Assembly: GCF_004563925.1 (NCBI RefSeq)
Contig: NZ_SPNJ01000004.1
Span: forward strand, 62,001 to 126,000
Origin: Herbaspirillum sp. 3R11
Lineage (GTDB): Bacteria; Pseudomonadota; Gammaproteobacteria; Burkholderiales; Burkholderiaceae_D
DNA: 64,000 nucleotides
Direction of reading: 5' to 3'
Below, piece after piece: positions 28,255-47,398 of the stretch; positions within the stretch are counted from its first letter, which is position 1, and each line of letters opens with the position of its first letter. The notes under the pieces are model-generated. The model worked only from the letters and a program-made list of their open reading frames with translations. It was not told where the DNA came from and searched no databases. The position numbers were made by a program, and so were the translations under genes.

Positions 28255-28620
28255 ATGTCCGACGTCACCATTTATCACAACCCGAAATGCAGCACTTCGC
28301 GCAACGTGCTTGAAATGATCCGCGCCGCCGGCATCGAGCCGGAGGTCGTCGAATACCTGAAGACGCCGCCAGACCGCGCCACACTCAAGAAGATCATCGC
28401 GGCCACCGGCGAGCCGGTGCGCAATATCATGCGCCGGCGCGGCACATCCTACGACGAGAAGGATCTGGACAACGCCAAATGGAGCGACGCGCAGTTGATC
28501 GACCTGATGCTGGAAGATCCGGTCCTGATCAACCGCCCCATCGTCGTCACTGCGCGCGGTGCTCGCCTGTGCCGGCCGGTAGAGAAACTGCAGGAAATAC
28601 TGCCGCCGGCCTCGGCCTGA
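28255..28620 (+). CDS. arsC: Arsenate reductase (glutaredoxin type, ArsC family)
   Basis: A 121-residue thioredoxin-fold protein. IYHNPKCSTSRNVLEMI places the catalytic cysteine at residue 12, and INRPIVVTARGARLCRP near 93-108 carries the arginines used by ArsC enzymes. ArsC reduces arsenate to arsenite with glutathione and glutaredoxin. No arsB or arsR is nearby, so housekeeping or YfgD-like roles are possible. AGGGGA precedes the ATG. The 3' end overlaps the convergent TauD-like gene by 74 bp. Confidence 0.87.
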   Translation: MSDVTIYHNPKCSTSRNVLEMIRAAGIEPEVVEYLKTPPDRATLKKIIAATGEPVRNIMRRRGTSYDEKDLDNAKWSDAQLIDLMLEDPVLINRPIVVTARGARLCRPVEKLQEILPPASA

Positions 28621-29500
28621 CTGCGGCATCTTCCAACGGGAGATCGGCATCCGCAATACGCCCGCTCGGCTGTCCGAGCAGCGTGGTGCGGTACATGATG
28701 CGACGCTGGCTGTGGTCGTAATCGGCCAGCGCAATATGCATGGCGCTGCGGTTGTCCCACATCATGGTGTCGCCGAGCTGCCAGCGATGACGGTAGACGT
28801 TTTCCGGCACGACGCTATGGTCGTACAGGTATTGCAGCAGCGGCCGACTCTCTTCTTCCGTCATGCCCTCGATCGCCACCGACGTCATCTCGCTCACATA
28901 CAGGGCCTTGCGCCCGCTGCCGTCGTGCACCCGCGCAATCGGCTGGTAGACCGGGGGATTGCGGCGGCGGATGTCGGCCAGCTCGTCGCTGGTGCGCACC
29001 TGCCGCGTCTCGCGCGCCGCCGTCATGTCGTGCAGCGCGTTGCGGCCGTCGAGGATGGACTGCAAGGTCGGAGACAAACTGTCCCAGGCCTTGTACATGT
29101 TGCAGAACATGGTGTCGCCGCCGACCTCGGGCAGCTCCACGCAATGCAGCAGGGAGCCTTTCGCCGGCCGCGTCGTGGTCGACAGATCGGAATGCCATTG
29201 GCGTCCCACCGCGAGGCGCTTGCCGCCTGCTTCATAGTTGGTGACCAGTAAAATTTCCGGATGCTCCGGGTGGCGAAATTTGGGAACCGCAGCATGATCA
29301 TCGAGCGCGCCGAAGTGACGGCTGAACGCGATGTGCTCCTCGAACGTCAGCGGCTGGTTGCGGAACAGCAGGATGATGTGGCGATGCCAGGCATCGATCA
29401 GCGCCTGCACCGTCTCGGCATCCAGCGGACTGCGCATGTCGATGCCGATCACTTCGGCGCCCAGCGCCGACGACAATGGTTTCAAGGAAAAGCTACTCAT
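28547..29500 (-). CDS. TauD/TfdA family Fe(II)/2-oxoglutarate dioxygenase
   Basis: A 317-residue enzyme of the TauD/TfdA family. The iron-binding H-x-D is in WHSDLSTT near residues 107-109. The distal histidine and 2-oxoglutarate arginine lie in MMWDNRSAMHIALADYDHSQRR near 252-273. These enzymes hydroxylate a carbon next to sulfonate, ether or amine groups and so release sulfite, an alcohol or an aldehyde. It follows an SsuBC/TauBC-type importer and is the distal gene of the operon that begins at 33996. The last 30 or so residues run antisense over arsC and look like a non-conserved extension. GGAGG precedes the ATG. Substrate unknown. Confidence 0.87.
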   Translation of the reverse strand: MSSFSLKPLSSALGAEVIGIDMRSPLDAETVQALIDAWHRHIILLFRNQPLTFEEHIAFSRHFGALDDHAAVPKFRHPEHPEILLVTNYEAGGKRLAVGRQWHSDLSTTTRPAKGSLLHCVELPEVGGDTMFCNMYKAWDSLSPTLQSILDGRNALHDMTAARETRQVRTSDELADIRRRNPPVYQPIARVHDGSGRKALYVSEMTSVAIEGMTEEESRPLLQYLYDHSVVPENVYRHRWQLGDTMMWDNRSAMHIALADYDHSQRRIMYRTTLLGQPSGRIADADLPLEDAAVRPRPAAVFPAVSLPAGTGEHRAQ

Positions 29501-29564
29501 GCTGCCTCCCGTGGATGGGGGCTACATCAGTTCGTCTCCGTCATTTTTATTTTTATCGCTGCAT

Positions 29565-30404
29565 TCAAACGGTGGGTATGCGCGAACTGTCAGCCCAGAA
29601 CAAAGCCTTGCGTTGCAGAAAACTCATCAGCACATGCAGGCATACGCCGATCGCCGACAGCACGAACAGCGTAGCGAACACGCCCGCCGTGTCGAGGTTG
29701 ACGTTCATCTGCATGATGGCGTTGCCGAGTCCCTTGCGCGAGCCGAGGAACTCGCCGACGATGGCGCCGAGAATGCTGAAGATGATCGCGATATTCAGTC
29801 CCGCAAAGATCATCGGCAGCGCGCCCGGCAGGCGCACCATCGTGAAAATCTGCCAGCGCGTCGCGCGCAGCGAGCGCATCAGTTCCAGCCGCGCCGGATC
29901 GGTCGAGCGCAAGCCGCTGATGACGTTGACCAGGATAGGGAAGAAGGCGATGGTCGCAGCGATGATGACCTTCGACGTCATGCCGAAGCCGAACCACATG
30001 ATGAACAGCGGCGCCACCGCCACCTTGGGCGTGGTCTGGATTGCAATCAAATAGGGGTACATCGTCTTTTCCGCCAGCGGGAACTGCGCGATCAGGCCGC
30101 CCAGCACGATGCCGAACAGCGCTGCCAATAGGAAGCCCAGCATGGCCTCGCCGAGCGTGTAAAGCGCATTGTCGAGATAGGCGGTATTGACCAGCGCCAA
30201 CGCGATGTTGGACGGTGCCGGCATGATGTAGATCGGAATTTCGAAGAAGCGGATGATCGCTTCCCATACCACCACCACGGCGACGAATACTGCCGGGATC
30301 AGCAGCAGTTCGGGCCGCGCCTTGAGCGTGCGGCGCAGGCTGAAAGAGGCAGGCGCCGCAGTGACGCCGGCGTTGGTTGCGGCGCTTGTGTGCACGCTTT
30401 CCAT
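29565..30404 (-). CDS. ABC transporter permease (SsuC/TauC type)
   Basis: A 279-residue inner-membrane permease with about six helices. The cytoplasmic EAA loop is visible as MRSLRATRWQIFTMVRLPGALPMIF near residues 176-200. The family-typical PLFIMWFGFGMTSKV precedes it. It belongs to the nitrate/sulfonate/taurine (NitT/TauT) importer group. The start overlaps the ATPase stop by 1 bp. The matching periplasmic binding protein is probably the one at 42819-43895, at the other end of the gene cluster. Confidence 0.92.
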   Translation of the reverse strand: MESVHTSAATNAGVTAAPASFSLRRTLKARPELLLIPAVFVAVVVVWEAIIRFFEIPIYIMPAPSNIALALVNTAYLDNALYTLGEAMLGFLLAALFGIVLGGLIAQFPLAEKTMYPYLIAIQTTPKVAVAPLFIMWFGFGMTSKVIIAATIAFFPILVNVISGLRSTDPARLELMRSLRATRWQIFTMVRLPGALPMIFAGLNIAIIFSILGAIVGEFLGSRKGLGNAIMQMNVNLDTAGVFATLFVLSAIGVCLHVLMSFLQRKALFWADSSRIPTV

Positions 30405-31234
30405 CAGATGAACCCCTGTGTATTGAATTGGCTGCGGATGCGCTTGCTGTACACGCCGAAAGCATCGGTCGACATGATGTCGAGGCCGCGTTCGGCCGGC
30501 AGGTCGACCGTCACCAGGTCGGCGATGCGACCCGGGCGATTGGACAACACCATCACGTGGGTGCCGAGGAAAATCGCTTCCGGAATCGAGTGCGTCACGA
30601 AGATCACGGTCTTGCCGGCCTTGCGCCAGATGCGCAGCAGCTCCAGGTTCATCACCTCGCGCGTCATGGCGTCGAGCGCACCGAACGGCTCGTCCATCAT
30701 CAGGATGGAAGGATCGTGGATCAAGGAACGCGCGATGGCGACGCGTTGCTGCATGCCGCCCGACAATTCATTCGGATAACGGTTGGCAAAATCGGCCAGG
30801 CCGACCATATCCAATAACTCTTGCGCGCGCACGCGGCTGGATGCCATGTCGAGGCCGAGCACCCGCGCCGGCAGCAGGACGTTGTCGATGGCGGTTTTCC
30901 ACGGCAGCAGCACCGGGCTCTGGAACACCATGCCGATGTCGCGATGCGGTTCATGCACTTCTTCGCCGTTGACCTTGATCGAACCGGCCGAACGCGGAAT
31001 CAGGCCCGACAGCAATTTGAGCAGGGTCGACTTGCCGCAGCCCGAGGGGCCGACGATGGTCATGAAACCGCCTTGCGGCACCGTCACCGAAATCGGACCG
31101 AGCGCCTGCACCTTGCCGCCGTCGTGGGTGGCATAGGTCTTTTCCAAGGCCTCGACAACAATGGCCGCAGGACTGTTCACAGCGTTTGCTTCTTGGCTGA
31201 ATGACGTGTCTCGCACGATCGACATAACTGACAT
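30404..31234 (-). CDS. ABC transporter ATP-binding protein (SsuB/TauB type)
   Basis: A 276-residue ATPase with Walker A GPSGCGKST, Q-loop VFQSPVLLPWKTAI, signature LSGGMQQRVAIARSL and Walker B ILMMDEPFGALD, all matching the NitT/TauT importer ATPases. The start at 31234 has AGGAG 8 nt upstream, so I reject the longer reading frame. The N-terminal 30 residues precede the conserved ABC core. It powers uptake with the next permease and probably the SsuA-like protein at 42819. Confidence 0.92.
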   Translation of the reverse strand: MSVMSIVRDTSFSQEANAVNSPAAIVVEALEKTYATHDGGKVQALGPISVTVPQGGFMTIVGPSGCGKSTLLKLLSGLIPRSAGSIKVNGEEVHEPHRDIGMVFQSPVLLPWKTAIDNVLLPARVLGLDMASSRVRAQELLDMVGLADFANRYPNELSGGMQQRVAIARSLIHDPSILMMDEPFGALDAMTREVMNLELLRIWRKAGKTVIFVTHSIPEAIFLGTHVMVLSNRPGRIADLVTVDLPAERGLDIMSTDAFGVYSKRIRSQFNTQGFI

Positions 31235-31313
31235 CCGGTTGACTCCTGAATGGCAAGCATCATAAAGCAAATGATTACAGCGCAAATGAATACTGCATCG
31301 GGCAAATCTGAAG

Positions 31314-31823
31314 CTAAGTGGTCAACTGCGACTTCACGAATTCAAGGCCGCCGCCGGCATTGACAATGTCCTGCAGGAAAGGCGCCAACGGCTCCACCTG
31401 CATCTGCTCGCCGCTGGTCGCATTGAAGATCGCACCGCGGGCGAAATCGATGTCGAGCTGATCACCGTCGTCAATGGCGTCGAGCACGTCGCTGCCCGCC
31501 ATCAACACCGGCACGCCCATGAAGATCGCCAGGCGGAACGGCCCACGCGACAACGACCGCACCAGCAAGCCGACGCCGAGCGCCTTCATCGCCAGGAAGG
31601 GATGGCTGTGGTTGCTGCCGTGGGCGAAGTTGCGACCGGCCACGATGACGTCGCCGGGCTGCGCCTGCTGCGCGAACTCGGGCCGCACTTCGGTCAGAAG
31701 ATGATGGCGCAGCATGCGCGGATCGAACTCGAATACGTGACGCGCCGAGATCAGCTGGTCGCTGGAGATGTCGCTGGAAAACTTCCATGCGCGCCCGCTC
31801 GTGGTTTTCCCGACCGCAATCAT
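31314..31823 (-). CDS. Aconitase-superfamily small subunit (LeuD-like)
   Basis: A 169-residue swivel-domain protein of the 3-isopropylmalate dehydratase small subunit / homoaconitase type. It carries PGDVIVAGRNFAHGSNHSHP near residues 56-75, the substrate-recognition loop region. The start overlaps the large-subunit stop by 4 bp (ATGA), so the two form a heterodimer. It is unlikely to serve leucine synthesis because the context is acyl-CoA catabolism beside a PEP-mutase-family lyase. Relatives include citraconate/2-methylmalate and 2,3-dimethylmalate dehydratases; which applies is open. Confidence 0.88.
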   Translation of the reverse strand: MIAVGKTTSGRAWKFSSDISSDQLISARHVFEFDPRMLRHHLLTEVRPEFAQQAQPGDVIVAGRNFAHGSNHSHPFLAMKALGVGLLVRSLSRGPFRLAIFMGVPVLMAGSDVLDAIDDGDQLDIDFARGAIFNATSGEQMQVEPLAPFLQDIVNAGGGLEFVKSQLTT

Positions 31824-33112
31824 GCTGCGCCCCCTTCGGCAAGCGCGGCAAAAGCACGCGGATCGGTGATGTGGCCCGTAATCGCCGACGCCGCCACGGT
31901 CATGGCGCTGGCGAGGAAAATCTCCGCCTCGTTGCTGCCCATGCGACCCGGATCGTTGCGCGTGCTGGTGCTGATGCGGCGTTCACCCGCGGTCAGTCGT
32001 GCGATGCCGCCAAAGCAGGGACCGCAGGTCGATGGTGAAATGGTTGCGCCGGCGGCGGTGAGTTCGGTCAGCAGGCCTTCCTGCAAAGCCTGCTGGAACA
32101 CTTGCTGCGTGGCGGGAATCACCAGCAGGTTTACATCGGCGTGCACCTTGCGGCCGCGCAGGATGGCGGCGGCGGAGCGGATGTCTTCAATCGAGCCGGA
32201 CACGCACGAGCCGATGTAGGCATGCTGGATGACGATGTCGGACATCGCCTGCGCTTCGCGTACATGGTTGGGCGATGGCGGGATCGACACGCGCGGCGTC
32301 AGCGTCGCCAGGTCGATATCGATGGTCATGGCGTACTCGGCGTCGGCGTCGCTGTTGATTGACGCCGGCGCTTGCAGCTCAGCCGAATCGGCCACGCCAT
32401 GCGCGCGCAGGTAATCGATGCAACGCTGGTCGACGGCGGCGATGCCCGACTTGGCGCCGGCGTCGACGCACAGGCCGCAGATCGTCATGCGCTCCGGCAC
32501 CGACAGCGTCGACAAACCTTCACCCTGGTATTCGATGACGCGATAGCTGGTGGCTTCGTCGTCGAGTTGCTGCATGGTCGCCAGCACAATGTCGCGCGCC
32601 GCCACACCGGGGCGACAAGCGCCGTGCAGGCGCACGCGGATGGTCTCGGGCACCTTCATCCAGATCTGTCCGGTGGCCAGCACCATCGACACTTCAAACC
32701 CGAACGGCACCGACAAGGCGCCGACCGCACCCAGACCAGGCGCATGGCTGTCGGCGCCGGCGGCGAACATGCCTGGCGCAACCAGGCCCTGCTCCACCAT
32801 GAGGGGATGCGTGATGCCGACACCGTCGAAGAAATGGCCGACCGACCATTCCTGCGCCAGCTGGCGCGTGAGCTTGTTGCGCTCGGCGCCGGCGACACTG
32901 TGCACTGGCACTTCGTGGTCGATGATGACGGCGACGCGTTCGGGATGCGCCAGTTTCGTGACGCCGATTTCGCGGATGCGTTTGATATAAGCGGAGAACG
33001 ACACCTCCGGCGCCGTCACCAGGTCCGGACTGGCCCAGATGATGTCGCCGTGCTGCACACGGTCCTTGCCGCTGGTGCGCGCAAGGATTTTCTGCGTCAT
33101 GGTTGCGCCCAT
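31820..33112 (-). CDS. Aconitase-superfamily large subunit (LeuC/DmdA-like dehydratase)
   Basis: A 430-residue [4Fe-4S] hydro-lyase subunit. Cluster ligands are Cys303 (GSCVSGSIED) and Cys363 with Cys366 (STCGPCFGG). The aconitase-type ADSHAPGLGAVG lies near residues 120-131. With the LeuD-like partner it should dehydrate or hydrate a 2-hydroxy-dicarboxylic acid such as citramalate, isopropylmalate or 2,3-dimethylmalate. GGAG precedes the ATG at 33112; a second ATG at 33100 is possible. The gene follows the lyase by only 5 bp, supporting consecutive steps. No leuB or leuA is present. Confidence 0.9.
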   Translation of the reverse strand: MGATMTQKILARTSGKDRVQHGDIIWASPDLVTAPEVSFSAYIKRIREIGVTKLAHPERVAVIIDHEVPVHSVAGAERNKLTRQLAQEWSVGHFFDGVGITHPLMVEQGLVAPGMFAAGADSHAPGLGAVGALSVPFGFEVSMVLATGQIWMKVPETIRVRLHGACRPGVAARDIVLATMQQLDDEATSYRVIEYQGEGLSTLSVPERMTICGLCVDAGAKSGIAAVDQRCIDYLRAHGVADSAELQAPASINSDADAEYAMTIDIDLATLTPRVSIPPSPNHVREAQAMSDIVIQHAYIGSCVSGSIEDIRSAAAILRGRKVHADVNLLVIPATQQVFQQALQEGLLTELTAAGATISPSTCGPCFGGIARLTAGERRISTSTRNDPGRMGSNEAEIFLASAMTVAASAITGHITDPRAFAALAEGGAA

Positions 33113-33117
33113 AGCAG

Positions 33118-33996
33118 TCAGCTCCCTTCGTTCACTTGCGTCGCCAGTTCTGCATCGAAGGCGGCGGCGCGTTCCACGCCGACCAGCCGGCCGACGTCGG
33201 CGAACTGCGCCATACCGTCGACCAGTTGCACGGTGTCGCCGCTGGCGAACATGCTGCGCAACATGTCCTGCTGCGCCTTGAAGGTGGTCTGGATCAGCGA
33301 CAGCGGATACAGCGACATGGCGAAGCCGGCGGCGGCCAGTTGCTGGCGTGTGTAATTGGGACGGACGGTTTCGGCGGCGACGTAGATCACCGGGATCTTC
33401 ACGCTCGACGCCACCGCCTCCAGCTCGGCCGGGGTGCTCAGCGAGGGCGCCATGACGGCATCGGCACCGGCGCGTTCCATGGCCTTGGCGCGCACGATGA
33501 CTTCTTCCAGACCATCAATGGTCATGGCGTCGGTGCGGCCGATGATGACGAACTCGCTGCTCTTGCGGCCTGCCCGTGCAGCCTTCAGGCGCAGCGACAT
33601 TTCTTCGATCGGCACCAGTTTCTTGCCGGCCATGGCGCCGCATTTCTTGGGCATGATCTGGTCTTCGAGATGCAGCCCGGCGATGCCGGCTTTCTCGAAG
33701 GCGCGTACGGTTTCGACGATGTTGGCCGCGCCGCCGTAGCCGGTATCGGCGTCGACCAGTACGGGAAGCGAAACCGCTTCGGCGATGCGCGTCGCCTGCT
33801 GCACCATGTCGGTCATGGTGAGCAGGCCGATGTCGGGCTTGCCGTAGCTTGAGGCGAGCGAAAATCCTGTCATGTAGGCGGCTTCAAAGCCGGCCTGTTC
33901 GATCAGCAGGGCGCCGAGCGCGTCGTAGCAGCCGGGCACCGGCACGGCGCCGCCACGCGCCAGCATTTCGCGGATCAAGGTCCCTGGATGTTGCAT
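33118..33996 (-). CDS. PEP mutase/isocitrate lyase family C-C lyase (PrpB/dimethylmalate lyase-like)
   Basis: A 292-residue (beta/alpha)8 enzyme of the ICL/PEPM superfamily. The metal-site aspartates D82 and D84 (VLVDADTGYGG) and the active-site loop EDQIMPKKCG with catalytic Cys119 are visible. The cysteine marks true carbon-carbon lyases (isocitrate, methylisocitrate, 2,3-dimethylmalate) as opposed to decarboxylases and hydrolases. The usual H after CG is replaced by A. Products would include pyruvate or glyoxylate plus an acid. The start at 33996 has GGAGA upstream. It is the first gene of the minus-strand operon driven from the bidirectional promoter at 34138-34178. Confidence 0.88.
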   Translation of the reverse strand: MQHPGTLIREMLARGGAVPVPGCYDALGALLIEQAGFEAAYMTGFSLASSYGKPDIGLLTMTDMVQQATRIAEAVSLPVLVDADTGYGGAANIVETVRAFEKAGIAGLHLEDQIMPKKCGAMAGKKLVPIEEMSLRLKAARAGRKSSEFVIIGRTDAMTIDGLEEVIVRAKAMERAGADAVMAPSLSTPAELEAVASSVKIPVIYVAAETVRPNYTRQQLAAAGFAMSLYPLSLIQTTFKAQQDMLRSMFASGDTVQLVDGMAQFADVGRLVGVERAAAFDAELATQVNEGS

Positions 33997-34024
33997 CTGG
34001 TCTCCGTTGGTAGCGTGTCGGTCA

Positions 34025-34060
34025 GGTATTGACTCAGGTATCGACTCAGGTATTGCGTCA
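34025..34060. repeat. Three 12-bp tandem repeats in the lyase operon leader
   Basis: GGTATTGACTCA, GGTATCGACTCA and GGTATTGCGTCA follow each other without gaps, with partial copies on both sides (GTCA before, GGTCTG after). They lie in the untranslated leader of the minus-strand lyase operon, about 30-65 bp before its start. Confidence 0.75.
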
Positions 34061-34137
34061 GGTCTGTACTTTACCTGCAACACGCCCGGCTCGCACATGT
34101 TGCCGTGCTACGCCCGCCACTCATTTTTCACTTCTGG

Positions 34138-34178
34138 TTGACTTCAATTAAATATACTTAGTAGTATGCGAATGTCAA
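34138..34178. promoter_or_regulatory. Bidirectional promoter with operator TATACTTAGTAGTATG (site 1)
   Basis: Plus strand: -35 TTGACT (34138-34143), 18-bp spacer, -10 TAGTAT (34162-34167). Minus strand: -35 TTGACA (34173-34178), 16-bp spacer, -10 TATATT (34151-34156). The 16-bp operator at 34153-34168 lies across both -10 regions. The 31 bp from 34138 to 34168 match the reverse strand of 38613-38643 at 27 of 31 positions. The core ACT-W-AGT is palindromic, as expected for a dimeric repressor. The TetR protein at 39872 is the most likely ligand. Confidence 0.75.
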
Positions 34179-34335
34179 GGACGATTCGTCAATTCCTTAG
34201 CCGCATTGCGGCACCCTTCCGACGTGGAAGACGTTGTCACGGTCATCAGCATCGACAACTTCCATCGCCCTGCAGCAGCATTATCAGGTTCAGATCCAGA
34301 TTCATGTCCACAAGCGCCACCTTCGACGAGGCCAC

Positions 34336-35274
34336 ATGACGATCGACTATCGCAAGCTGATGCACTGGAAGATTCCCATCGCGCGCCAGCACGTGCGCCC
34401 GCAGGATTGCATCCTGTACGCGCTTGGCGTCGGTCTCGGCGCCGATCCGCTCGACCGCGACCAACTTCATTACGTGTACGAAGAAGGCCTGCGCGTGCTG
34501 CCCACCATGGCGACGGTGCTGGCCTATCCCGGCTTCTGGATGAAGATGCCCGATACCGGCATCGACTGGACGCGCGTGGTGCACGCCGAACAGCAGGTCA
34601 TCCTGCACAAGCCGCTGCCGATATGCAAACAGCTGATCGGCGACACCCGCATCGTCGATATCGTCGACAAGGGGCCGGACAAGGGAGCGCTGATTTACCA
34701 GGAACGCGTGGTCACCGAGGAAGACAGCGGCGAACCGGTCTGCACCCTGCGCATGACCACCATGTGCCGCGGCGATGGCGGCGTGCAGAACATGCCGACG
34801 GCAGCATCTGGCCACCTTCATCCTGCGCCGGCGCCGTTGCCGGAACGTCCGGCGGACTTCTGCATCGACCTGCCCATCCTGTCGCAGGCCGCGCTGATCT
34901 ACCGGCTGTCGGGCGACGGCAATCCGCTGCACGCTGATCCGGAAGTCGCCTTGCGCGCGGGATTTCCGCGACCGATCCTGCACGGTCTGTGCACCTTCGG
35001 CGTGGCCGGCCACGCCTTGCTCAAGGCCTTGTGCTGGTCGCCAGAGCCGGGACGCCGCATGGACATCCGCTCGATCGGCGCACGCTTCTCGGCGCCGGTC
35101 TATCCCGGCGAAATGCTGCGTACCGAAATCTGGCGTGAGGGCAACGACGGCAACCACATCGCGTTCCGCTGCAGCGTACCGCAGCGTGGCGTGGTGGTGC
35201 TCAACCATGGCGCAGCCCTCATCGCCGCGCACGCCGACACAAAAAACCGCAAGGAAGTCCTCCATGGCGCTTGA
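34336..35274 (+). CDS. MaoC family (R)-specific enoyl-CoA hydratase 2
   Basis: A 312-residue protein with two hot-dog domains. The C-terminal one carries the hydratase 2 motif YRLSGDGNPLHADPEVALRAG (about residues 198-218), with catalytic Asp and His, followed by PRPILHGLCTFGVAG. The N-terminal half is a degenerate hot dog with EEGLRVLPTMATVLAYPGFW, as in multifunctional enzyme 2 and steroid-degrading hydratases. It hydrates a 2-enoyl-CoA to (R)-3-hydroxyacyl-CoA. GAGG precedes the ATG. It overlaps the acyl-CoA dehydrogenase gene by 11 bp. Confidence 0.92.
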   Translation: MTIDYRKLMHWKIPIARQHVRPQDCILYALGVGLGADPLDRDQLHYVYEEGLRVLPTMATVLAYPGFWMKMPDTGIDWTRVVHAEQQVILHKPLPICKQLIGDTRIVDIVDKGPDKGALIYQERVVTEEDSGEPVCTLRMTTMCRGDGGVQNMPTAASGHLHPAPAPLPERPADFCIDLPILSQAALIYRLSGDGNPLHADPEVALRAGFPRPILHGLCTFGVAGHALLKALCWSPEPGRRMDIRSIGARFSAPVYPGEMLRTEIWREGNDGNHIAFRCSVPQRGVVVLNHGAALIAAHADTKNRKEVLHGA

Positions 35275-36421: not shown

Positions 36422-37245
36422 GGACGACCGCCGCCGCAAATGACGATCTGCCCGCTGATGTAGTTCGACTCCGGAATGCAGAACAGATACACCGCGCCCG
36501 CCGCTTCCGCCGGCGTGCCGGCGCGGCCCATCGGGATCAGGGTTTCCAGGTTCTGCATCAGTTGCTGGTTGACGCCAACCTTGATCTCGTTGCCTGAAAT
36601 ATTGATGGTGGCGTCGTCGCCTGCCGTCGCTTCGGTCAGGCGCGTCTTGATCAGGCCGAAGGCGACGCTGTTGACGTTGACCTTGTAGCGTCCCCACTCC
36701 TTGGCCAGCGCCTTGGTGAGGCCGTTGATGGCCGACTTGGCGGCGGAATAATTGGCCTGGCCCGCGTTGCCCATGACGCCCGACACCGACGAAATGTTGA
36801 CCACCTTGCGGAATACTTCGAGGCCTTGCGCAGTTTCTTCCTTGGCGGCGCGGCGGAAATATTCCGACGCCGCGCGCAGGATGCGGAACGGCGCCGTCAC
36901 GTGCACCGCCATGATGGCGTCCCATTGTTCATCGGTCATTTTCTGGATCACGTTGTCCCAGGTGTAGCCGGCATTGTTGACGATGATGTCGAGCCGGCCG
37001 AAGCTATTCAATGCGGTGTCGATGAAACGCGTGGCGAATTCGGGGGCTGTGACGTCGCCGCAGCACACCGTGGCGCGACCGCCGGCAGCAATGATTTCCT
37101 GCACGACGCTCTCGGCCATTTTTTCATCGAGATCGTTGATGACCAGCGCTGCGCCATCGGCAGCCAGCTTCAACGCGATCTCGCGTCCGATGCCGCGGCC
37201 TGAACCGCTGACGATGGCGACTTTACCTTCGAGCTTCTTGTGCAT
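36418..37245 (-). CDS. SDR family 3-hydroxyacyl-CoA dehydrogenase-like protein
   Basis: A 275-residue SDR with SGSGRGIGREIALKLAADG at residues 13-31, NNAG near 92-95, catalytic YSAAK near 169-173 and the C-terminal ISGQIVICGGG. Two insertions near 135-150 and 210-230 make it longer than FabG, resembling SDRs in acyl-CoA catabolic clusters that oxidise 3-hydroxyacyl-CoA. AAGGAG precedes the ATG. It is downstream of the thiolase on the minus strand and overlaps the convergent acyl-CoA dehydrogenase by 4 bp. Confidence 0.9.
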   Translation of the reverse strand: MHKKLEGKVAIVSGSGRGIGREIALKLAADGAALVINDLDEKMAESVVQEIIAAGGRATVCCGDVTAPEFATRFIDTALNSFGRLDIIVNNAGYTWDNVIQKMTDEQWDAIMAVHVTAPFRILRAASEYFRRAAKEETAQGLEVFRKVVNISSVSGVMGNAGQANYSAAKSAINGLTKALAKEWGRYKVNVNSVAFGLIKTRLTEATAGDDATINISGNEIKVGVNQQLMQNLETLIPMGRAGTPAEAAGAVYLFCIPESNYISGQIVICGGGRP

Positions 37246-37308
37246 ATGGTCTCCTTGACGACACGATCTACGCCGCGCTTCATGGGTTGATGACGGACAA
37301 GCTTCAGT

Positions 37309-38496
37309 TCAGTTGGTTTTTTCGTAGATGGTGACGACGCAGGCGCCGCCCAGGCCGAGGTTGTGCTGCAGGCCCCAACGCGCGCCGTTGACCTGACGCC
37401 GCTCGGCCTGGCCGCGCAATTGCCAGGTCAGCTCCGCGCATTGTGCGAGGCCGGTGGCGCCGAGCGGATGGCCTTTCGACAGCAGGCCGCCGGACGGGTT
37501 GGTGACGATCTTGCCGCCGTAGGTGTTGTCGCCGTCGAGGATGAATTTCTCGGCGGTGCCGGGCGGTGTCAGTTGCAGCGCTTCGTAGCTGATCAGTTCA
37601 TTGGCGGTGAAGCAGTCGTGCAGCTCGACCACCTGGATGTCTTCGGGTCCGACGCCGGCTTCGGCGTATGCGCGCTCCGCTGCGATGGCTGCCATGCCGT
37701 AGCCGACCAGCTTGCGCATGTCGCCGCTGTCGAAAGAATCGGGCCGGTCAGTGGTCATCGCCTGCGCCGCGATGGCGACGCTGGTGTCGAGATTGAACCA
37801 GCGCGCGAAACGCTTGGAGCACAGCACCGCCGCCGCCGCGCCGCAGGTCGGCGGACAGCATTGCAGGCGCGTCAGCAGGCCGAACACGGTCGGCGACGCC
37901 ATGACTTCTTCCAGCGTGACGGGCGTGCGGAATACGGCGTAAGGATTGTTGGCCGCGTGTCGGCGCGCCTTCACCGAAATTTGTCCGAAGGTCTCCGGTG
38001 CGATGCCGTATTGATCGAGATAGTCCTGGCCCGCGCCGCCAAAAAATTGCGGCGCGCGCGGCAGCTCCGGGTCATAGCCGCGATTGCTTGCCATGGTGTC
38101 GAGGAAGCGCTGCAGCGGCGCCGGCCGGTCGGTGTAAATGGTGCGCAGCGGGCCCGGCATCATCTGCTCCACGCCGATCACCAGCGCGCAATCGATGGCG
38201 CCGCTGGCGATCGCCTGGCGCGCAAGAAACAACGCGGTGGAACCGGTCGCACAATTGTTGTTGACGTTGATGATGGGCAGACCCGAGAGGCCGACTTCGT
38301 AGAGCATCGCCTGGCCGACGGTGGAGTCGCCGTAGACATATCCTGCGTAGGCTTGTTCGATCGCCTCGTAACGGATGCCGGCATCGGCGAGCGCGGCGCG
38401 CGCAGCGGCGGCGCCCATTTCCACATACGACGCACTGGTACTTGGCTTCGCAAACGGCACCATGCCGACACCGGTGACATAGACTTTCTCGCTCAC
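37309..38496 (-). CDS. Thiolase (SCPx/acetyl-CoA acetyltransferase-like)
   Basis: A 395-residue thiolase-fold protein with the nucleophilic Cys82 in NNNCATGSTAL, the histidine of VVELHDCFTANELISYEAL near 290 and the KGHPLGATGLAQ motif near 343-354, as in the SCP2/SCPx thiolases. It cleaves a 3-ketoacyl-CoA, including branched ones. It starts with GTG at 38496, preceded by a perfect AGGAGG. It is the first gene of the minus-strand thiolase-SDR unit driven by the bidirectional promoter at 38602-38643. Confidence 0.92.
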   Translation of the reverse strand: MSEKVYVTGVGMVPFAKPSTSASYVEMGAAAARAALADAGIRYEAIEQAYAGYVYGDSTVGQAMLYEVGLSGLPIINVNNNCATGSTALFLARQAIASGAIDCALVIGVEQMMPGPLRTIYTDRPAPLQRFLDTMASNRGYDPELPRAPQFFGGAGQDYLDQYGIAPETFGQISVKARRHAANNPYAVFRTPVTLEEVMASPTVFGLLTRLQCCPPTCGAAAAVLCSKRFARWFNLDTSVAIAAQAMTTDRPDSFDSGDMRKLVGYGMAAIAAERAYAEAGVGPEDIQVVELHDCFTANELISYEALQLTPPGTAEKFILDGDNTYGGKIVTNPSGGLLSKGHPLGATGLAQCAELTWQLRGQAERRQVNGARWGLQHNLGLGGACVVTIYEKTN

Positions 38497-38601
38497 TGCC
38501 GCCTCCTGGCCCGATCGGGCATGTTGAGCTGCGTCAAAACAGAATTTTTGTTCGCGTGTACAGTATGCGAACGCGTGTTCGAAAATAATGCGGAATGATA
38601 T

Positions 38602-38643
38602 TTGACTCTATTCATACTACTTAGTATATTAAGATGAAGTCAA
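38602..38643. promoter_or_regulatory. Bidirectional promoter with operator CATACTACTTAGTATA (site 2)
   Basis: Plus strand: -35 TTGACT (38602-38607), 17-bp spacer, -10 TATATT (38625-38630). Minus strand: -35 TTGACT (38638-38643), 18-bp spacer, -10 TAGTAT (38614-38619). The operator at 38613-38628 is the reverse complement of site 1 with one difference in 16. It drives the thiolase-SDR unit one way and the acyl-CoA dehydrogenase-TetR-ligase-crotonase-binding protein unit the other way. Confidence 0.78.
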
Positions 38644-38702
38644 TATAAGAAAGCCGCTCTACAACAGACTGACCGCCGGGCCTTCGGCGCAATGGAGAGA
38701 CG

Positions 38703-39872
38703 ATGGCGATTATTTGGGATCCTTCCCTCGACCCTGACGCAAGCAAGTGGCGCGACATTGCGCGCCGCCTCGCCCACGATCAGCTGGCGCCGCGTGCCGC
38801 CGGCATCGACCGCGATCAGCGCTATCCCCACGAAAATGTCGAAGCCCTCCATGAGAGCGGCATCGCCTCGATGTTCATCCCCAAAGATTACGGCGGCGGC
38901 GGCGCTTCCCTGACTGCGTTCTGCGCCGTGATCGAAGAACTGGCGCAAGCATGCGCGTCCACCAGTGGTATTGTCGCAACCCTGCAGCTGGGTGCCATGC
39001 CCCTGCTGCGCGCCGGCACCAATGGACAAAAAGACACCTATATCCGCGCCATGGTAGCCGGACGCAAATCGATTTCGTTTGCGCTCAGCGAGCGTGAAGC
39101 CGGCTCCGATCCCTCCAACATGCAAACTCTCGCCACACCGGAGAACGATGGCTGGCGGCTGCGCGGCGAGAAGCGCTGGATCGGCGGCGGCGGCGAGTGC
39201 GCGTACTACGTGGTATTTGCGCAAACAGAACCGGGCGCAGGCCGGCGCGGCATCGCCGCCTTCATGGTGGCGGCCGACGCCGAGGGCGTGCGCGACGATG
39301 CGCGCGAAGACAAGATGGGCATGCGCGGCACCGTCAACAGCACCGTCGTGCTCGACACCTGGGTCGCGGCCGATTGCATGATTGCGGCGCCGGGCAAAGC
39401 ACTGCGCCTGGCGCTTGAAGCGCTCAACGTCGGACGCGTTGTTGTAGCAGCACAATCGAACGGTATTGCACGCGCCGCATATGATGCAGCAGCACGCCGG
39501 GCGGCGGTTCGCACCACCTTCGGCCAGCGTCTGCTCGACCATCAGGGCATAGGTTTCAAACTTGCAGATGTCGCAACTCGGTTATCCGCAGGTAGAATGC
39601 TTGCATACGAAACCGCCCGCAGTTTTGATACTGGTCAGGATGTCGCGCTTATCGGCGCTCAAGCGAAGTTATTCTGTAGCGAGGCTGCTCACGATGCAGT
39701 CGATATCGGTGTACAGGTATTTGGCGGAGAGGGTTTCGTGAAACCTTCGCTCGTGGAGCGTCTTTATCGTGATCAGCGCGCCACCGAAATTTATGAAGGT
39801 ACTTCGGAGATCCAGAGACTGGTGCTCGCACGGGCGATTCATGCCGAGTTCAATAATGAGGAGCAAGCATAA
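38703..39872 (+). CDS. Acyl-CoA dehydrogenase (cluster copy 2)
   Basis: A 389-residue flavoenzyme: FALSEREAGSDPSNMQTLA near residues 120-138 at the FAD site, catalytic glutamate in IYEGTSEIQRLVLARAI near 365-381, and VFGGEGFVKPSLVERLYRD before it. It is only distantly similar to copy 1, suggesting a second acyl substrate or chain position. GGAGA precedes the ATG. It is the first gene of a five-gene plus-strand unit and shares one base of its stop with the TetR start (TAATG). Confidence 0.93.
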   Translation: MAIIWDPSLDPDASKWRDIARRLAHDQLAPRAAGIDRDQRYPHENVEALHESGIASMFIPKDYGGGGASLTAFCAVIEELAQACASTSGIVATLQLGAMPLLRAGTNGQKDTYIRAMVAGRKSISFALSEREAGSDPSNMQTLATPENDGWRLRGEKRWIGGGGECAYYVVFAQTEPGAGRRGIAAFMVAADAEGVRDDAREDKMGMRGTVNSTVVLDTWVAADCMIAAPGKALRLALEALNVGRVVVAAQSNGIARAAYDAAARRAAVRTTFGQRLLDHQGIGFKLADVATRLSAGRMLAYETARSFDTGQDVALIGAQAKLFCSEAAHDAVDIGVQVFGGEGFVKPSLVERLYRDQRATEIYEGTSEIQRLVLARAIHAEFNNEEQA

Positions 39873-40534
39873 TGAAGGTCGACACAGCACGTCACACATC
39901 GACAAACAATGAATTCGCCGGAGATGATTCGGACCCGCGCAGCGAGATCCTCGACGCTGCCGCGCTGGCATTCATGACAAAAGGTTATGCCGCCACCAGC
40001 ATCGACGATGTCGCCGATATCCTCAGCGCCACCAAGGGCAAGATCTACCATCACTACCGCAAGAAAGCCGACCTGTTCTTCGACGTGCACAAGCGCGGCA
40101 TGGAAATGGACCTGGCCGCGGTGCAGGAAGCCGCGTCGAAATCCCACGCACGGGCCATCGACAAGCTGCGCGCAATGACACTGGCGCACATCACCGTGAT
40201 CATGGACCACCTGCCCTACCAGCGCGTCGCCGTGCAAGGCCTGGAGATGCATCTGGCCGGCGAGACCACCGCCGCCCAGCGCGAAGTGCTGTCGGAAATC
40301 CTGGTGCTGCGCGATCAGTACGAGAACCTGTTCCGCGACACCATCCGCCAGGTCATGGCCGAAGGCCACGCGCCCGACCAGGACCTGCAGATCGTCGTCA
40401 AGGCCTTCTTCGGCGCATTGAACTGGACCACCATCTGGTTCCGCCCGCGCGTCGACCAGACCGAAGACGAAAAGCTGGCGGTCGCCAACTCCATCTCCAC
40501 CTTTGCGATTCGCGGTCTCGGCGCGGAGCAATAA
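39872..40534 (+). CDS. TetR/AcrR family regulator of the acyl-CoA cluster
   Basis: A 220-residue regulator. The helix-turn-helix (about residues 24-68) reads ILDAAALAFMTKGYAATSID, then DVADILSATKGKIYHHYRKK, similar to KstR2/FadR-type TetR proteins that sense CoA esters. It is embedded in the catabolic operon and overlaps the acyl-CoA dehydrogenase by one base. Two near-identical operators precede the four transcription units of the cluster, including its own, so it probably represses all of them until an acyl-CoA intermediate binds. The protein-operator match is inference. Confidence 0.9.
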   Translation: MKVDTARHTSTNNEFAGDDSDPRSEILDAAALAFMTKGYAATSIDDVADILSATKGKIYHHYRKKADLFFDVHKRGMEMDLAAVQEAASKSHARAIDKLRAMTLAHITVIMDHLPYQRVAVQGLEMHLAGETTAAQREVLSEILVLRDQYENLFRDTIRQVMAEGHAPDQDLQIVVKAFFGALNWTTIWFRPRVDQTEDEKLAVANSISTFAIRGLGAEQ

Positions 40535-40536
40535 TC

Positions 40537-41874
40537 ATGCGCTCCGGTGCGCTGATCGCCGCCGCGCCCGTGCATCTCGATCCCGCCGAAAGCTGGGATC
40601 GCGCCACGCTGGAGGCATTCCAGCTGGCGCAACTGCGCGTGCAACTGGCGCGGCTTGCCAGGGACAGCGCGTACTATGCGCCGCTGTTCCGACAGCTGGA
40701 CTGGAACGTCGGCGAGCTGCGCTCGCTGGCCGACCTGAGCAAACTTCCGTTTACCACCAAGCCTGATTACATCAACACGATCGGCGCGCAGACGCCGTTC
40801 GGCAGATTCATGACCGTGCCGCAGGACGAGGTGCGGCGCATGCACTTTTCCTCCGGCACGACGTCGGCGCCCTCACCGCAGTTCTGGAGCGAGCACGACC
40901 TCGACCGCTGGGCCGGCCTGTACGCGCGTCACGCGCGTGCGCAGGGCATCGGTCCCGGCGACATCGTGCAATGCATGTTCAGCTACACCTGGTTCGTCGG
41001 CGGCCTCGGCGCCACGGCCGGTTACCAACGTGCCGGCGCCATGGTGATCCCGGCCGGCAGCCAGGATACCGAACGCCAGATCAATACTTTATTCACCTAC
41101 GGCAGCACGGTGCTGTGCGGCACACCGTCCTTCATCACCCATCTCGCCGAAGAAGTGCGCAAGCGTGGCCGCGACCCTGCCGCCTCGACCGTGCGCAGCA
41201 TCATGATGGGCGGCGAACCCGGCGCCAGCATCCCAGCCACGCGCCGGCGCATCGAGGCATTGTGGGGCGCACGCGCCTACGACGCTTACGGCTGCCTTGA
41301 ATTCCAACCCATCGCCGGCGACTGCACCGCGCAGGCCGGACCGCACCTGGCGGAAGATTTCGCCTACGCCGAAATCGTCGATGCCGAAACCGGCGCCGCC
41401 GTTGCCGACGGCACGCCCGGCGTGCTGGTGCTGACCCATCTCGACAAACAAGCCGGCCCGCTGGTGCGCTGGTGGACCGGCGACATCGTGGTGCGCGACT
41501 CCAGCCCGTGCAGCTGCGGTCGCACGCATGCACGCCTGGTCGGCGGTGTACGCGGCCGCGCCGACGACATGCTGGTGGTGCGGGGCGTCAACGTGTTCCC
41601 TTCTGCAGTCGAGGAACTGGTGCGCGCCACACCCGGCCTCGGCGACGAATACCAGCTCGTCATCAACGGCTCGGTGCATGACGCCGCCGGCTTCATGAAA
41701 TCGATTCACGTGCGCGTGGAGCAGACCGATACCGCCGCCGATACATCACGACTGGCGGCGCAACTGACACAGGAAATCAAACAGCGCCTGCAAGTCGGCG
41801 CGCACGTGGAAGTGCTGCCGCAAGGCACTCTCGAACGCAGTACGCACAAGGCAAAACGCGTCGTCAGGGAATAA
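40537..41874 (+). CDS. Phenylacetate-CoA ligase-type AMP-forming acyl-CoA ligase
   Basis: A 445-residue adenylate-forming enzyme of the PaaK group. The P-loop-like MHFSSGTTSAPSPQFWS is near residues 104-120, the A5-type YDAYGCLEFQPIAGDC near 248-263 and RWWTGDIVVRD near 311-321. RADDMLVVRGVNVFPSAVEE near 342-361 is the hinge to the C-terminal lid. It would activate the imported carboxylic acid to its CoA ester with ATP. It follows the TetR gene by 2 bp. PaaK relatives act on aromatic and also alicyclic or aliphatic acids; the substrate cannot be read out. Confidence 0.9.
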   Translation: MRSGALIAAAPVHLDPAESWDRATLEAFQLAQLRVQLARLARDSAYYAPLFRQLDWNVGELRSLADLSKLPFTTKPDYINTIGAQTPFGRFMTVPQDEVRRMHFSSGTTSAPSPQFWSEHDLDRWAGLYARHARAQGIGPGDIVQCMFSYTWFVGGLGATAGYQRAGAMVIPAGSQDTERQINTLFTYGSTVLCGTPSFITHLAEEVRKRGRDPAASTVRSIMMGGEPGASIPATRRRIEALWGARAYDAYGCLEFQPIAGDCTAQAGPHLAEDFAYAEIVDAETGAAVADGTPGVLVLTHLDKQAGPLVRWWTGDIVVRDSSPCSCGRTHARLVGGVRGRADDMLVVRGVNVFPSAVEELVRATPGLGDEYQLVINGSVHDAAGFMKSIHVRVEQTDTAADTSRLAAQLTQEIKQRLQVGAHVEVLPQGTLERSTHKAKRVVRE

Positions 41875-41964
41875 AAAAACAAAGAGATCCACTGACACGG
41901 TAACAAAACAGCAGCAAAAAAACACCATCGGCGCAGGCCATCCTGACGCCAGGGAGGAGCGGAC

Positions 41965-42738
41965 ATGCAAAGCATCGTCACCGTGGAACGCAGCGACGCC
42001 GTCGCCTGCGTCACCATGAACCAGCCCGAGCGCCGCAACGCGCTGGCGCCGGAAATGCGCGAGGCCCTCACCGAAACCCTGGAGCGCCTGGCCGGCGATG
42101 TCGATTGCCGCGCCATCATCCTGGCCGGCAGCGACCGCAGCTTCTGCGCAGGCGGCGATCTGTCCACCCTGCCCGCCGGCGACACGCTCGCCAGTCGCAA
42201 GCGCATGACGCTGGCGCACCGCCTGCTGCGCACCATCACCGACATGCCCAAACCGCTGATCGCCGCCGTCGACGGTACTGCCTTTGGCGCCGGCATGGGC
42301 CTGGCGCTGGCCTGCGACTACGTAATGTGCAGCGAACGCGCACGCTTCTGCACCGCCTACTCCAACGTCGGATTGATGGCCGACATGGGCCTGCTGTGGT
42401 CGCTGCCGCAACGCGTCAGCGCCGGGCAAGTGCGCCGGCTGCTGTACACCAGCGTCGTAGTCGACGGCGAAGAAGCGCTGCGCCTCGGCCTCGCCGACCA
42501 GTTGGTGCGCAGCGACGAATTGCAGCAGGCCGCACTCGACCTCGCTACGCAGTTCGCCGCCGCCCCGCCGCTCGCGGTCGGTCTCACCAAGGCCGCGCTG
42601 GCGCGCCTGCCGGGCTCGCTCGACACGGTCATGGGGCTGGAACTGGACGGCCAGTTGCAATTGTTTTCGAGTGCAGATTTCACGGAAGGGCGGCATGCCT
42701 TCCTGGAGAAAAGACGGCCGCATTTTCAGGGTCGCTGA
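41965..42738 (+). CDS. Enoyl-CoA hydratase/isomerase (crotonase) family protein
   Basis: A crotonase-fold protein of 257 residues. The oxyanion-hole segments are FCAGGDLSTL near residues 55-64 and GTAFGAGMGLALACDYVM near 99-116. At the position of the first catalytic glutamate of hydratases the sequence reads AYSNVGLMADMGLLWSLP, with no glutamate and an aspartate instead. That resembles PaaG-type double-bond isomerases more than true hydratases. A role in moving a double bond or opening a ring is therefore more likely than simple hydration, which MaoC can do. GGGAGGAG precedes the ATG. Confidence 0.88.
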   Translation: MQSIVTVERSDAVACVTMNQPERRNALAPEMREALTETLERLAGDVDCRAIILAGSDRSFCAGGDLSTLPAGDTLASRKRMTLAHRLLRTITDMPKPLIAAVDGTAFGAGMGLALACDYVMCSERARFCTAYSNVGLMADMGLLWSLPQRVSAGQVRRLLYTSVVVDGEEALRLGLADQLVRSDELQQAALDLATQFAAAPPLAVGLTKAALARLPGSLDTVMGLELDGQLQLFSSADFTEGRHAFLEKRRPHFQGR

Positions 42739-42759
42739 AGTGAAATGATCAAATTGACA

Positions 42760-42785
42760 CGTACCTGCGAGTATCTGCAGGTACG
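42760..42785. repeat. Inverted repeat CGTACCTGC-N8-GCAGGTACG before the binding protein gene
   Basis: Perfect 9-bp arms at 42760-42768 and 42777-42785, 34 bp before the binding-protein ATG. It could be a leader hairpin that adjusts expression of this last gene (binding proteins are often made in excess) or a regulator site. Confidence 0.6.
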
Positions 42786-42818
42786 GATAGGATGCTGGAC
42801 TTCACCTACGAGGAAATC

Positions 42819-43895
42819 ATGAAAAGATCAGTTGCCGCCCTTACCTGTGCCGGTGCCGCCGCCGGTGCGCTGATGCTTGCCCCCGCAGCGGTCAATGCGC
42901 AGGCCCGTGAAAAAGTCACCATCGCCATCGGCACTGACGTGCTCGACGCCTCGCAGGTCAACAACACCTCGCTGCCGATCTACACCAAGTGCTGGGAAAA
43001 CGCCGGCCTCGACGTCACGCTGCAGCCGACCAATTCCACCACCGCCATGCAGGCGGTGCTGACCGGCCAGGCCGACATGGTCAACATGGGTCCTGCAGCA
43101 GCCATCATCGCGCGCACCAAGGGCGCGCCGTTGAAGGCGGTGTACCTCAACATGCGCCACAACTTCCAGTTCCCGGTGGTGCTCGACTCGTCACCGGTCA
43201 AGACCATCAACGACTTCAAGGGTAAAACCATCGGCGTGCTGTCGTACGGCTCCCAGATGGTGCAGATCTTCAAGGGCATGCTGACCGAAGCCGGCATCAA
43301 TCCGGACAAGGACGTGACGTTTGTGGAAACCGGCTCCGGCGCGCAAGCCGTGACCGCGCTGTCGAAAGGCCGCGTCGACATCTGGGGTACCTGGGATTCG
43401 CAGATCGCCACGGCGGAAAACATGGGCCTGAAGCTGCGCCGCTTCTCCTCGCCGTTCGCAGAGAAACTCAACTTCGGCGGCTCCTACTTCGTGCGCGACG
43501 ACATGATCACCAAGCGTCCGCAGACCATCGAAAAAGTCTTGCGCTGCGTGGCTATGGGTTCGGTGACGGCGCTGGCCAATCCGCAGGGATCGCTGAAGGT
43601 GCACTGGAAAGTATTCCCGCTGACCAAGCCATCCAGCCTCGACGATGCTACAGCCATCAAGCAGGGCCTGCACATCATCCAGACACGTGGGGAATTCCTG
43701 AAACTGGAACCGGGCGTCAAGTGGGGGGAAATCCCGATCAGCGCGGTCGCCAACATGGTGGCGTTCATGAAGGCCAACAACGTCATCCAGACCAGCCCGA
43801 AACTGGAAGACCTCTACACCAACCAGTTCATCCCGGCGATCAACAACTTCGACACCGCCAAGGTGGTTGCGGCGGCCAAGGCGCTGCCGCAATAA
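42819..43895 (+). CDS. ABC transporter substrate-binding protein (SsuA/TauA, NMT1/THI5-like)
   Basis: A 358-residue periplasmic binding protein. The start at 42819 follows GAGGA and gives a signal peptide MKRSVAALTCAGAAAGALML ending AVNAQA. The mature part has the NitT/TauT pattern TSLPIYTKCWENAGLDVTLQ (early helix), ADMVNMGPAAAI and FKGKTIGV. It likely delivers substrate to the permease and ATPase at 29565-31234, which lack a binding protein of their own; both units share the same regulatory element. Confidence 0.9.
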   Translation: MKRSVAALTCAGAAAGALMLAPAAVNAQAREKVTIAIGTDVLDASQVNNTSLPIYTKCWENAGLDVTLQPTNSTTAMQAVLTGQADMVNMGPAAAIIARTKGAPLKAVYLNMRHNFQFPVVLDSSPVKTINDFKGKTIGVLSYGSQMVQIFKGMLTEAGINPDKDVTFVETGSGAQAVTALSKGRVDIWGTWDSQIATAENMGLKLRRFSSPFAEKLNFGGSYFVRDDMITKRPQTIEKVLRCVAMGSVTALANPQGSLKVHWKVFPLTKPSSLDDATAIKQGLHIIQTRGEFLKLEPGVKWGEIPISAVANMVAFMKANNVIQTSPKLEDLYTNQFIPAINNFDTAKVVAAAKALPQ

Positions 43896-47291: not shown

Positions 47292-47398
47292 TACGATTGA
47301 ATCACCCCGATGCCACACTCCATACGCCGCGCGCGCCGCTGCGGCATAATCCCTCAGACAACATCAAAGATCGCATCACGATCAACAAGGGAAGGCGC

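Follow-up and report, generated by a model that had tools for sequence, protein, structure and literature searches.

A locus of Herbaspirillum sp. 3R11 may encode a dedicated catabolic route in which an aberrant LeuCD-like hydro-lyase and a carbon–carbon lyase of the ICL/PEPM superfamily act upstream of coenzyme A (CoA)-dependent β-oxidation. The locus occupies positions 28547–43895 of a 64,000-nucleotide stretch of the genome (contig NZ_SPNJ01000004.1 of assembly GCF_004563925.1, positions 62,001 to 126,000), called the window here, whose numbering is used throughout. Its 15 genes were assigned to families by Pfam and NCBIfam profile scores, and every gene family named in a preliminary description of the letters was located. 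That description, whose interpretation is partly supported, placed β-oxidation ahead of the LeuCD pair and the lyase. We favor the reversed order, namely import, isomerization, cleavage, CoA activation, dehydrogenation and β-oxidation within one TetR-controlled regulon, and give it a probability of about 45%. The division of the cluster into a core and a block, and its integrity, are well supported. We infer the reaction order, the product type and the substrate class (a 2-substituted malate or similar).

LeuC of the window type was searched for in 33 congeners and, in 22 of these, ACAD2, SCPx and TauD were searched for genome-wide; G023, G030 and G031 were judged from fetched loci alone. Besides the source genome, 8 of the 33 congeners carry this LeuC at 83–96% identity. 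The core consists of nine genes: three importer genes, LeuC, LeuD, the lyase, a PaaK-type ligase, the second acyl-CoA dehydrogenase (ACAD2) and a TetR regulator. In the window, G001 (RV1423), G005, G023 (H. rhizosphaerae) and G030, a block of MaoC, ACAD1, SDR and SCPx genes lies between the lyase and ACAD2. The lyase and ACAD2 stand directly back to back, with no intact crotonase, in the core-only genomes G031 (CF444), G004 and G009 (Sphag64). The core-only loci (L029/L044, L030/L047 and L031/L048) have the SsuA–PaaK–TetR–ACAD2 genes back to back with lyase–LeuC–LeuD–ATPase–permease, and no intact MaoC, ACAD1, SDR, SCPx, crotonase or TauD gene was found in them. G006 (H. lusitanum), a fragmented assembly in which the junction is unassembled, has LeuC and ACAD2, and genome-wide neither SCPx nor TauD. 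The importer permease and ATPase are kept in all congener loci that cover them. TauD is present in four of the nine cluster-bearing genomes (those of the window, G001, G005 and G023). Genome-wide searches found none in G004, G006 and G009, and for G030 and G031 it is absent from the locus that was fetched. ACAD2 was found in 5/5 LeuC-positive and 0/17 LeuC-negative congeners among the 22 searched. The preliminary description had proposed the co-occurrence of LeuCD, the lyase, SCPx and TauD as a check. Joint conservation holds for LeuCD and the lyase, which congeners keep along with the ligase, ACAD2 and the importer, but not for SCPx and TauD, which some lack. A β-oxidation set that defines the pathway or feeds LeuCD and the lyase is not supported, as some congeners keep these enzymes without the block and TauD; as a backbone of the core it is ruled out by the core-only loci. 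G030 also has a second LeuC–LeuD–ATPase copy with a shortened lyase, distant from the full cluster on the same contig (L024, G030:C1:4575000-4594000).

CF444 retains broken pieces of SCPx (L044, 8645–8905) and the C-terminus of the crotonase (5055–5201, 80% over 49 residues), so the block was lost there; no block remnant was found in L047 or L048. In a LeuC plus LeuD tree of 10 rows, rooted with a 75% relative, the earliest branches are those of G009 and G004; the seven remaining rows group together with a support of 0.998. The simplest history starts from an ancestral core of nine genes, followed by gain of the block and by later losses. The block, like TauD, seems to have been acquired later and to have disappeared again from some strains. 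Three between-species comparisons, one including the core-only locus L031, gave ratios of non-synonymous to synonymous substitution (dN/dS) of 0.05–0.16 for the nine core genes and of 0.06–0.21 for the block genes and TauD wherever present. Such low values indicate that the cluster is more than a chance assembly.

Beyond the genus, 399 genomes sampled from the order, with scoring limited to 4 candidates in each, gave one further LeuC match past E 1e-88, at 44% identity. A scan of 84,980 species genomes with two peptide patterns, of which the best 80 of 389 loci were taken, gave seven LeuC loci at 75–94% identity, the next best being at 43%. For the ligase, no relative at E 1e-100 was found outside the source genome among 300 genomes of the order. 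With LeuC and the ligase so narrowly distributed, the cluster appears close to genus-restricted.

An intergenic palindrome, ATACTACT[A/T]AGTAT, is common to the cluster. The 5.2 Mb genome contains two exact copies, and both are in the cluster: ATACTACTAAGTAT at 34154–34167 (minus strand), between the lyase and MaoC genes, and ATACTACTTAGTAT at 38614–38627 (plus strand), between the SCPx and ACAD2 genes. One further copy with a mismatch lies elsewhere; at two mismatches, 0.01 matches are expected in the window. Each of the four predicted transcription units starts beside one of the two palindromes. These units are lyase–LeuC–LeuD–ATPase–permease–TauD (minus strand), MaoC–ACAD1 (plus), SCPx–SDR (minus) and ACAD2–TetR–PaaK–crotonase–binding protein (plus). 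The block loci checked (L023, L026, L045 and L046) have two sites each at matching places; L023 also has an additional one, at two mismatches. In each of the three core-only loci there is one site, and in two of these loci it has one mismatch. Since the palindrome is shared, has its only exact copies here and lies beside all units, the cluster looks like one TetR regulon. The preliminary reading of the region as a catabolic cluster is supported, its genes behaving as a single co-regulated set.

The LeuCD pair belongs to a separate aconitase-superfamily clade in which, judged from the alignments, active-site residues are replaced. The large subunit (31820–33112, minus strand; PF00330, 294.4 bits, cut-off 28.7) has three Fe–S cysteines. 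Its gene overlaps that of the small subunit (31314–31823, minus strand; TIGR02087, 123.1 bits, cut-off 108.95) by 4 bp. Both subunits fall below the leucine equivalogs: LeuC scored 192.6 against 560.25 for TIGR00170 and 374.8 against 610.65 for TIGR02083, and LeuD, which has no Pfam match, scored 111.9 against 245.85 for TIGR02084. Two other LeuC genes in the genome exceed the 560.25 cut-off, at 784.2 and 611.3 bits; the latter, besides the main one, lies at G000:C7:542623-543999. The missed cut-offs, the separate clade and the two other LeuC genes rule out leucine biosynthesis, and this part of the preliminary interpretation is supported.

The small subunit reads GSNHSHP in place of GSSREHAP, and we call this form His-type. 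The Ser-Ser-Arg motif is absent from 17 of 83 LeuD relatives in the fetched loci. In a 96-row LeuC tree, the partners of these 17 form one side of a single branch (SH-aLRT 97; the clustering was matched in 0/500 shuffles). This tree is an independent check because the His-type label was derived from LeuD. L038 adjoins the clade, and its LeuD aligns with a gap at the Arg. Eight of the 17 clade rows are one close group, so the rows are not independent. The three Fe–S columns are Cys in 17/17 clade rows and 79/79 others, as in the aconitase superfamily, and the first Asp-His pair and the last Arg compared are kept in 17/17 clade rows. The small-subunit Arg expected of isopropylmalate isomerase is replaced by His in 15 and Lys in 2 of the 17 rows; it is Arg in 65/66 others. 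Ahead of the NRNF Arg, clade rows have Thr, Ala or Ser (17/17) where 76/79 others have Asn. The NRNF Phe is never Phe in the clade and is Phe in 77/79 others. Residue numbers for aconitase and the lyase other than Ser642, Cys358, Cys421, Cys424, Asp58, Glu115 and Cys123 were mapped by motif. All 8 Herbaspirillum-type rows, but 0 of the other 9, retain the first Ser, which is presumed to be the general base; in mitochondrial aconitase this role belongs to Ser642 (PMC8184944). Other His-type pairs occur at L032, L035, L037, L050, L053, L058, L088, L107 and L119. Where covered, their flanks, as read from sequence, include TctC, HyuA/HyuB-like, MmgE/PrpD-like, TauD or CoA-transferase genes (Pfam-checked for L119 and one L058 gene).

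The lyase gene (33118–34098, minus strand; PF13714, 171.7 bits, cut-off 31.5; motif KKCGAM) ends 5 bp from LeuC (lyase stop at 33118, LeuC start at 33112), a spacing already given in the preliminary description. Translation may instead start at an internal ATG at 33996 (MQHPGTL), where the similarity begins in 3/9 congener copies. The fold is that of methylisocitrate lyase (AF2 model with a pLDDT of 85.3; Foldseek TM 0.87, 35% identity). The catalytic Cys reported earlier is indeed present (KKC), consistent with a C–C lyase, and is also found in 27/28 comparison sequences. Counterparts of Asp58, Glu115 and Cys123 are kept, as are the Mg-binding Asp pair, the Lys and the Arg; the numbering of these C–C cleavage residues comes, via isocitrate lyase counterparts, from PMC7609661. 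The Asp pair, Lys-x-Cys and Arg columns of the ICL/PEPM superfamily are conserved in 7/7 genus rows. Changes are seen in two other columns. One, a His after the Cys, is Ala in 7/7 genus rows (His in 20/28 others, Ala in 2); the other, a Glu, is Pro in 7/7 (Glu in 21/28 others, Asp in 4). The Verticiella lyase shows similar changes, Ala and Met, and sits with a His-type LeuCD and a TauD at 52% identity. The altered columns in LeuCD and the lyase suggest that both partners have changed substrate sites, though under purifying selection. The lyase scores closer to methylisocitrate lyase (1.9e-49) than to the solved oxaloacetate decarboxylase (2e-30), in support of the preliminary description. It misses the PrpB equivalog (TIGR02317, 246.3 against 354.4), and at another place the genome has a separate PrpB-like gene, followed, by our reading, by a citrate-synthase-family gene. 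On these two grounds the methylcitrate cycle is ruled out, and the cluster lyase is distinct from that PrpB-like enzyme. A second lyase paralogue (L002, G000:C3:608092-611811; KKCGAM, Glu kept, 44% identity to the window lyase) lies beside an apparent MFS transporter gene. Searched against plasmids, the lyase matched 262 records, each below 60% identity; five of the 262 were inspected, one of them without annotated features.

The importer comprises a permease (29565–30404, minus strand; PF00528, 106 bits), an ATPase (30404–31285, minus; PF00005, 121.7 bits) and an NMT1/THI5-family substrate-binding protein (42792–43895, plus; PF09084, 99.7 bits). It was first labeled SsuABC-type. An ABC importer is present, but the label is overstated: the binding protein scored 97.5 against the SsuA subfamily cut-off of 163.5, and the SsuB and SsuC equivalogs were missed (188.1 against 395 and 76.9 against 347). 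In the model of the binding protein (pLDDT 74.9, moderate), thiamin-binding and pyrimidine-binding proteins match ahead of SsuA; the ligand is not indicated by this. The accessory TauD/TfdA-family 2-oxoglutarate dioxygenase (28547–29500, minus; PF02668, 219.7 bits) misses the taurine dioxygenase equivalog (NF007104, 210.4 against 313), and its closest solved relative is (R)-phenoxypropionate dioxygenase. Plain sulfonate use is a weak candidate, since the importer and TauD miss the sulfonate and taurine cut-offs, and fold and solved relatives point elsewhere. The PaaK-type AMP-forming CoA ligase (40537–41874, plus; PF14535, 67.6 bits) is closest to solved PaaK 2y27 and misses the PaaK equivalog (TIGR02155, 288.2 against 646.3). 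No match to a thioesterase or CoA-transferase family was obtained for any of the 15 genes, and no candidate CoA hydrolase is present in the core.

The route that we favor would run as follows. The ABC importer (29565–31285 and 42792–43895) would take up an organic acid. The LeuCD-like [4Fe-4S] hydro-lyase would isomerize it by dehydration and rehydration, in the manner of isopropylmalate isomerase, and the lyase would split the 2-hydroxy acid into a 2-oxoacid (glyoxylate or pyruvate) and a carboxylic acid R-CH2-COOH. The ligase would form the CoA ester of the released acid, and ACAD2 would oxidize this to the enoyl-CoA. The block (MaoC, SDR, SCPx, ACAD1 and crotonase) would then be a dedicated β-oxidation set, gained later and usually with TauD; strains without it would rely on housekeeping β-oxidation. 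Characterized LeuCD-type and ICL/PEPM enzymes act on free acids. This, together with the lack of a recognizable CoA-releasing enzyme in the core and the importer genes shared by the lyase and ligase arms, makes the reversed order the most economical. Substrates such as 2-isopropylmalate, benzylmalate, or eucomic or piscidic acid come from our assumed chemistry, and nothing in the analysis supports them. A rather doubtful extension would see in the His-type LeuCD a branch of the aconitase superfamily that is undescribed and has a rebuilt substrate site; together with the divergent lyase it would cleave a new class of 2-hydroxy acids as the entry to CoA-dependent β-oxidation (a 'leucine pathway run backwards').

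Several observations weigh against this reading. The palindrome is a predicted rather than a proven operator, and a reversed control pattern, allowing up to one mismatch, also has 1 match in the genome. The reaction order is not fixed by the gene content, and the basal core-only state could reflect two independent losses. With active sites apparently altered in LeuD, LeuC and the lyase, it is uncertain that the substrate is of a plain malate type. A CoA-transferase gene is present in two (L081 and L119) of the seven lyase–LeuCD loci read outside the genus, and an acyl-CoA synthetase gene at L036; CoA steps could accordingly come first. The Verticiella locus L119 combines a CaiB-type CoA-transferase, two MaoC genes, TauD, the lyase and a His-type LeuCD. 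Because the ECH_2 family that the crotonase matches (PF16113, 124.2 bits) has CoA hydrolases among its members, a free acid could be released in block strains. These last points favor the order of the preliminary description, in which a substrate is imported, activated, passed through β-oxidation and released as a branched di- or tricarboxylate, which LeuCD and the lyase then convert to pyruvate- or propionate-type products. All the enzyme types that it needs are present and share the predicted operator. We nevertheless consider it unlikely: three congeners keep LeuCD, the lyase, the ligase and ACAD2 adjacent without the block, and purifying selection on the core was seen in the one tested; the 15 genes lack a thioesterase or CoA-transferase match; and the block also occurs without LeuCD or the lyase in 4/9 other Burkholderiales neighborhoods fetched.

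Alternatively, two pathways could share one regulator, the importer, LeuCD and lyase serving one acid and the ligase, ACADs and block another from the same source. Each half is found alone, as a transporter–LeuCD–lyase operon without CoA genes in Azospirillum and as a ligase–SCPx–MaoC–SDR–ACAD set without LeuCD at L145. This arrangement is distinctly unlikely here, given that the importer genes are split between the lyase and ligase arms of one divergent promoter region and that ACAD2 and the window-type LeuC go together in every congener tested by both searches. More improbable still is a sulfonated or ether substrate from which the importer and TauD strip a sulfonate or aryl-ether group before breakdown of the skeleton. 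The closest solved relatives of TauD do cleave aryloxypropionates and taurine, and the gene is kept in 4/9 cluster-bearing genomes and in Verticiella (52% identity). However, it is missing from the other five in the genome-wide searches or fetched loci given above, and the importer and dioxygenase fall under the sulfonate and taurine cut-offs.

The remaining core genes encode ACAD2 (38703–39872, plus; PF00441, 139.5 bits) and the TetR-family regulator (39872–40534, plus; PF00440 and PF17932). The block genes encode an MFE-2-type double-MaoC enoyl-CoA hydratase (34336–35274, plus; PF01575 and PF22622), ACAD1 (about 35264–36421, plus; PF00441, 169.2 bits), a 3-hydroxyacyl-CoA dehydrogenase-like SDR (36418–37245, minus; PF13561, 170 bits), an SCPx-type thiolase (37309–38496, minus; NF006102, 652.7 bits, above the subfamily cut-off of 436) and the crotonase-fold enzyme, an isomerase/hydratase or hydrolase (41965–42738, plus; PF00378, 193.1 bits, and PF16113). 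Rfam and tRNA scans of the window gave 0 matches each. On one side the cluster adjoins a UbiX-type flavoprotein (26717–27253, PF02441) and an SDR (27301–28059), also in G001 and G030. On the other side it adjoins a TonB-dependent receptor (44276–46393), near a protein without a Pfam or NCBIfam match (46415–47152). CF444 (L044) and a Duganella-labelled metagenome-assembled genome (L047) have other genes past the binding protein, including a LysR like that at 47390–48307 in the window.

Outside the genus, the lyase adjoins LeuCD in 9 of 73 scan loci. An uptake gene is nearby in six of the seven such loci read (TRAP, SSF twice, MFS, ABC and TctC, one SSF by similarity only). An Azospirillum plasmid run has GntR, lyase, LeuC, LeuD, an NMT1-type ABC importer and a second lyase, and no CoA gene. 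Hydro-lyase and lyase pairs, and ligase-driven β-oxidation sets, are already known. For their union in one regulon, and for the His-type LeuCD, no description was found in the open literature searched, in agreement with the earlier statement that the gene set matches no described pathway; some of our queries were over-strict. If our reading is true, a plant- and soil-associated genus degrades, by a route dedicated to it, an acid for whose breakdown that literature gives no description. The key enzymes of the route would then be wrongly labeled by annotation pipelines, as belonging to leucine biosynthesis, as methylisocitrate lyase and as sulfonate uptake proteins. The core-only strains offer a direct test of the step order. 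The His-type clade lies elsewhere beside transporter, hydantoinase-like and CoA-transferase genes, and solving the Herbaspirillum case would aid annotation there.

The closest known systems each share part of this architecture. In the SCPx–MaoC–SDR–ACAD modules of Burkholderiales, SCPx (63–72% identity) and SDR (67–77%) stand side by side (L145, L146, L147 and L151), but these loci have no LeuCD or lyase match. The 2,3-dimethylmalate dehydratase/lyase pair belongs to nicotinate fermentation in Eubacterium. DmdAB and its lyase likewise place a LeuCD-type hydro-lyase next to an ICL/PEPM lyase, and the cluster LeuD matches the LeuD/DmdB model TIGR02087. The Herbaspirillum cluster differs in its aerobic context, ligase, ACADs, ABC importer, His-type LeuD and lyase without the usual His and Glu, a distinction drawn at the level of the pathway rather than of DmdA or DmdB sequences. 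Among the 15 families at 28547–43895, none of the neighbor genes usual for nicotinate fermentation was found. The 2-methylcitrate cycle (PrpB with AcnD or AcnB) shares the lyase fold and the catalytic core of methylisocitrate lyase, but the cluster lyase is under the PrpB cut-off and the genome has its separate PrpB-like gene. Isopropylmalate isomerase shares the domain architecture and Fe–S cysteines of the LeuCD pair (LeuC scores 282.5 bits to the archaeal structure 4nqy), whereas the pair is below the equivalogs and, set against the SSRE-type sequences examined, falls in another clade and has a different active site. The cluster LeuCD is only a weak match to aconitase X (21.6 bits against a cut-off of 31.5), but that family, with its cis-3-hydroxyproline and mevalonate 5-phosphate dehydratases, offers a precedent for an aconitase-superfamily active site rebuilt for other substrates (PMC8184944).

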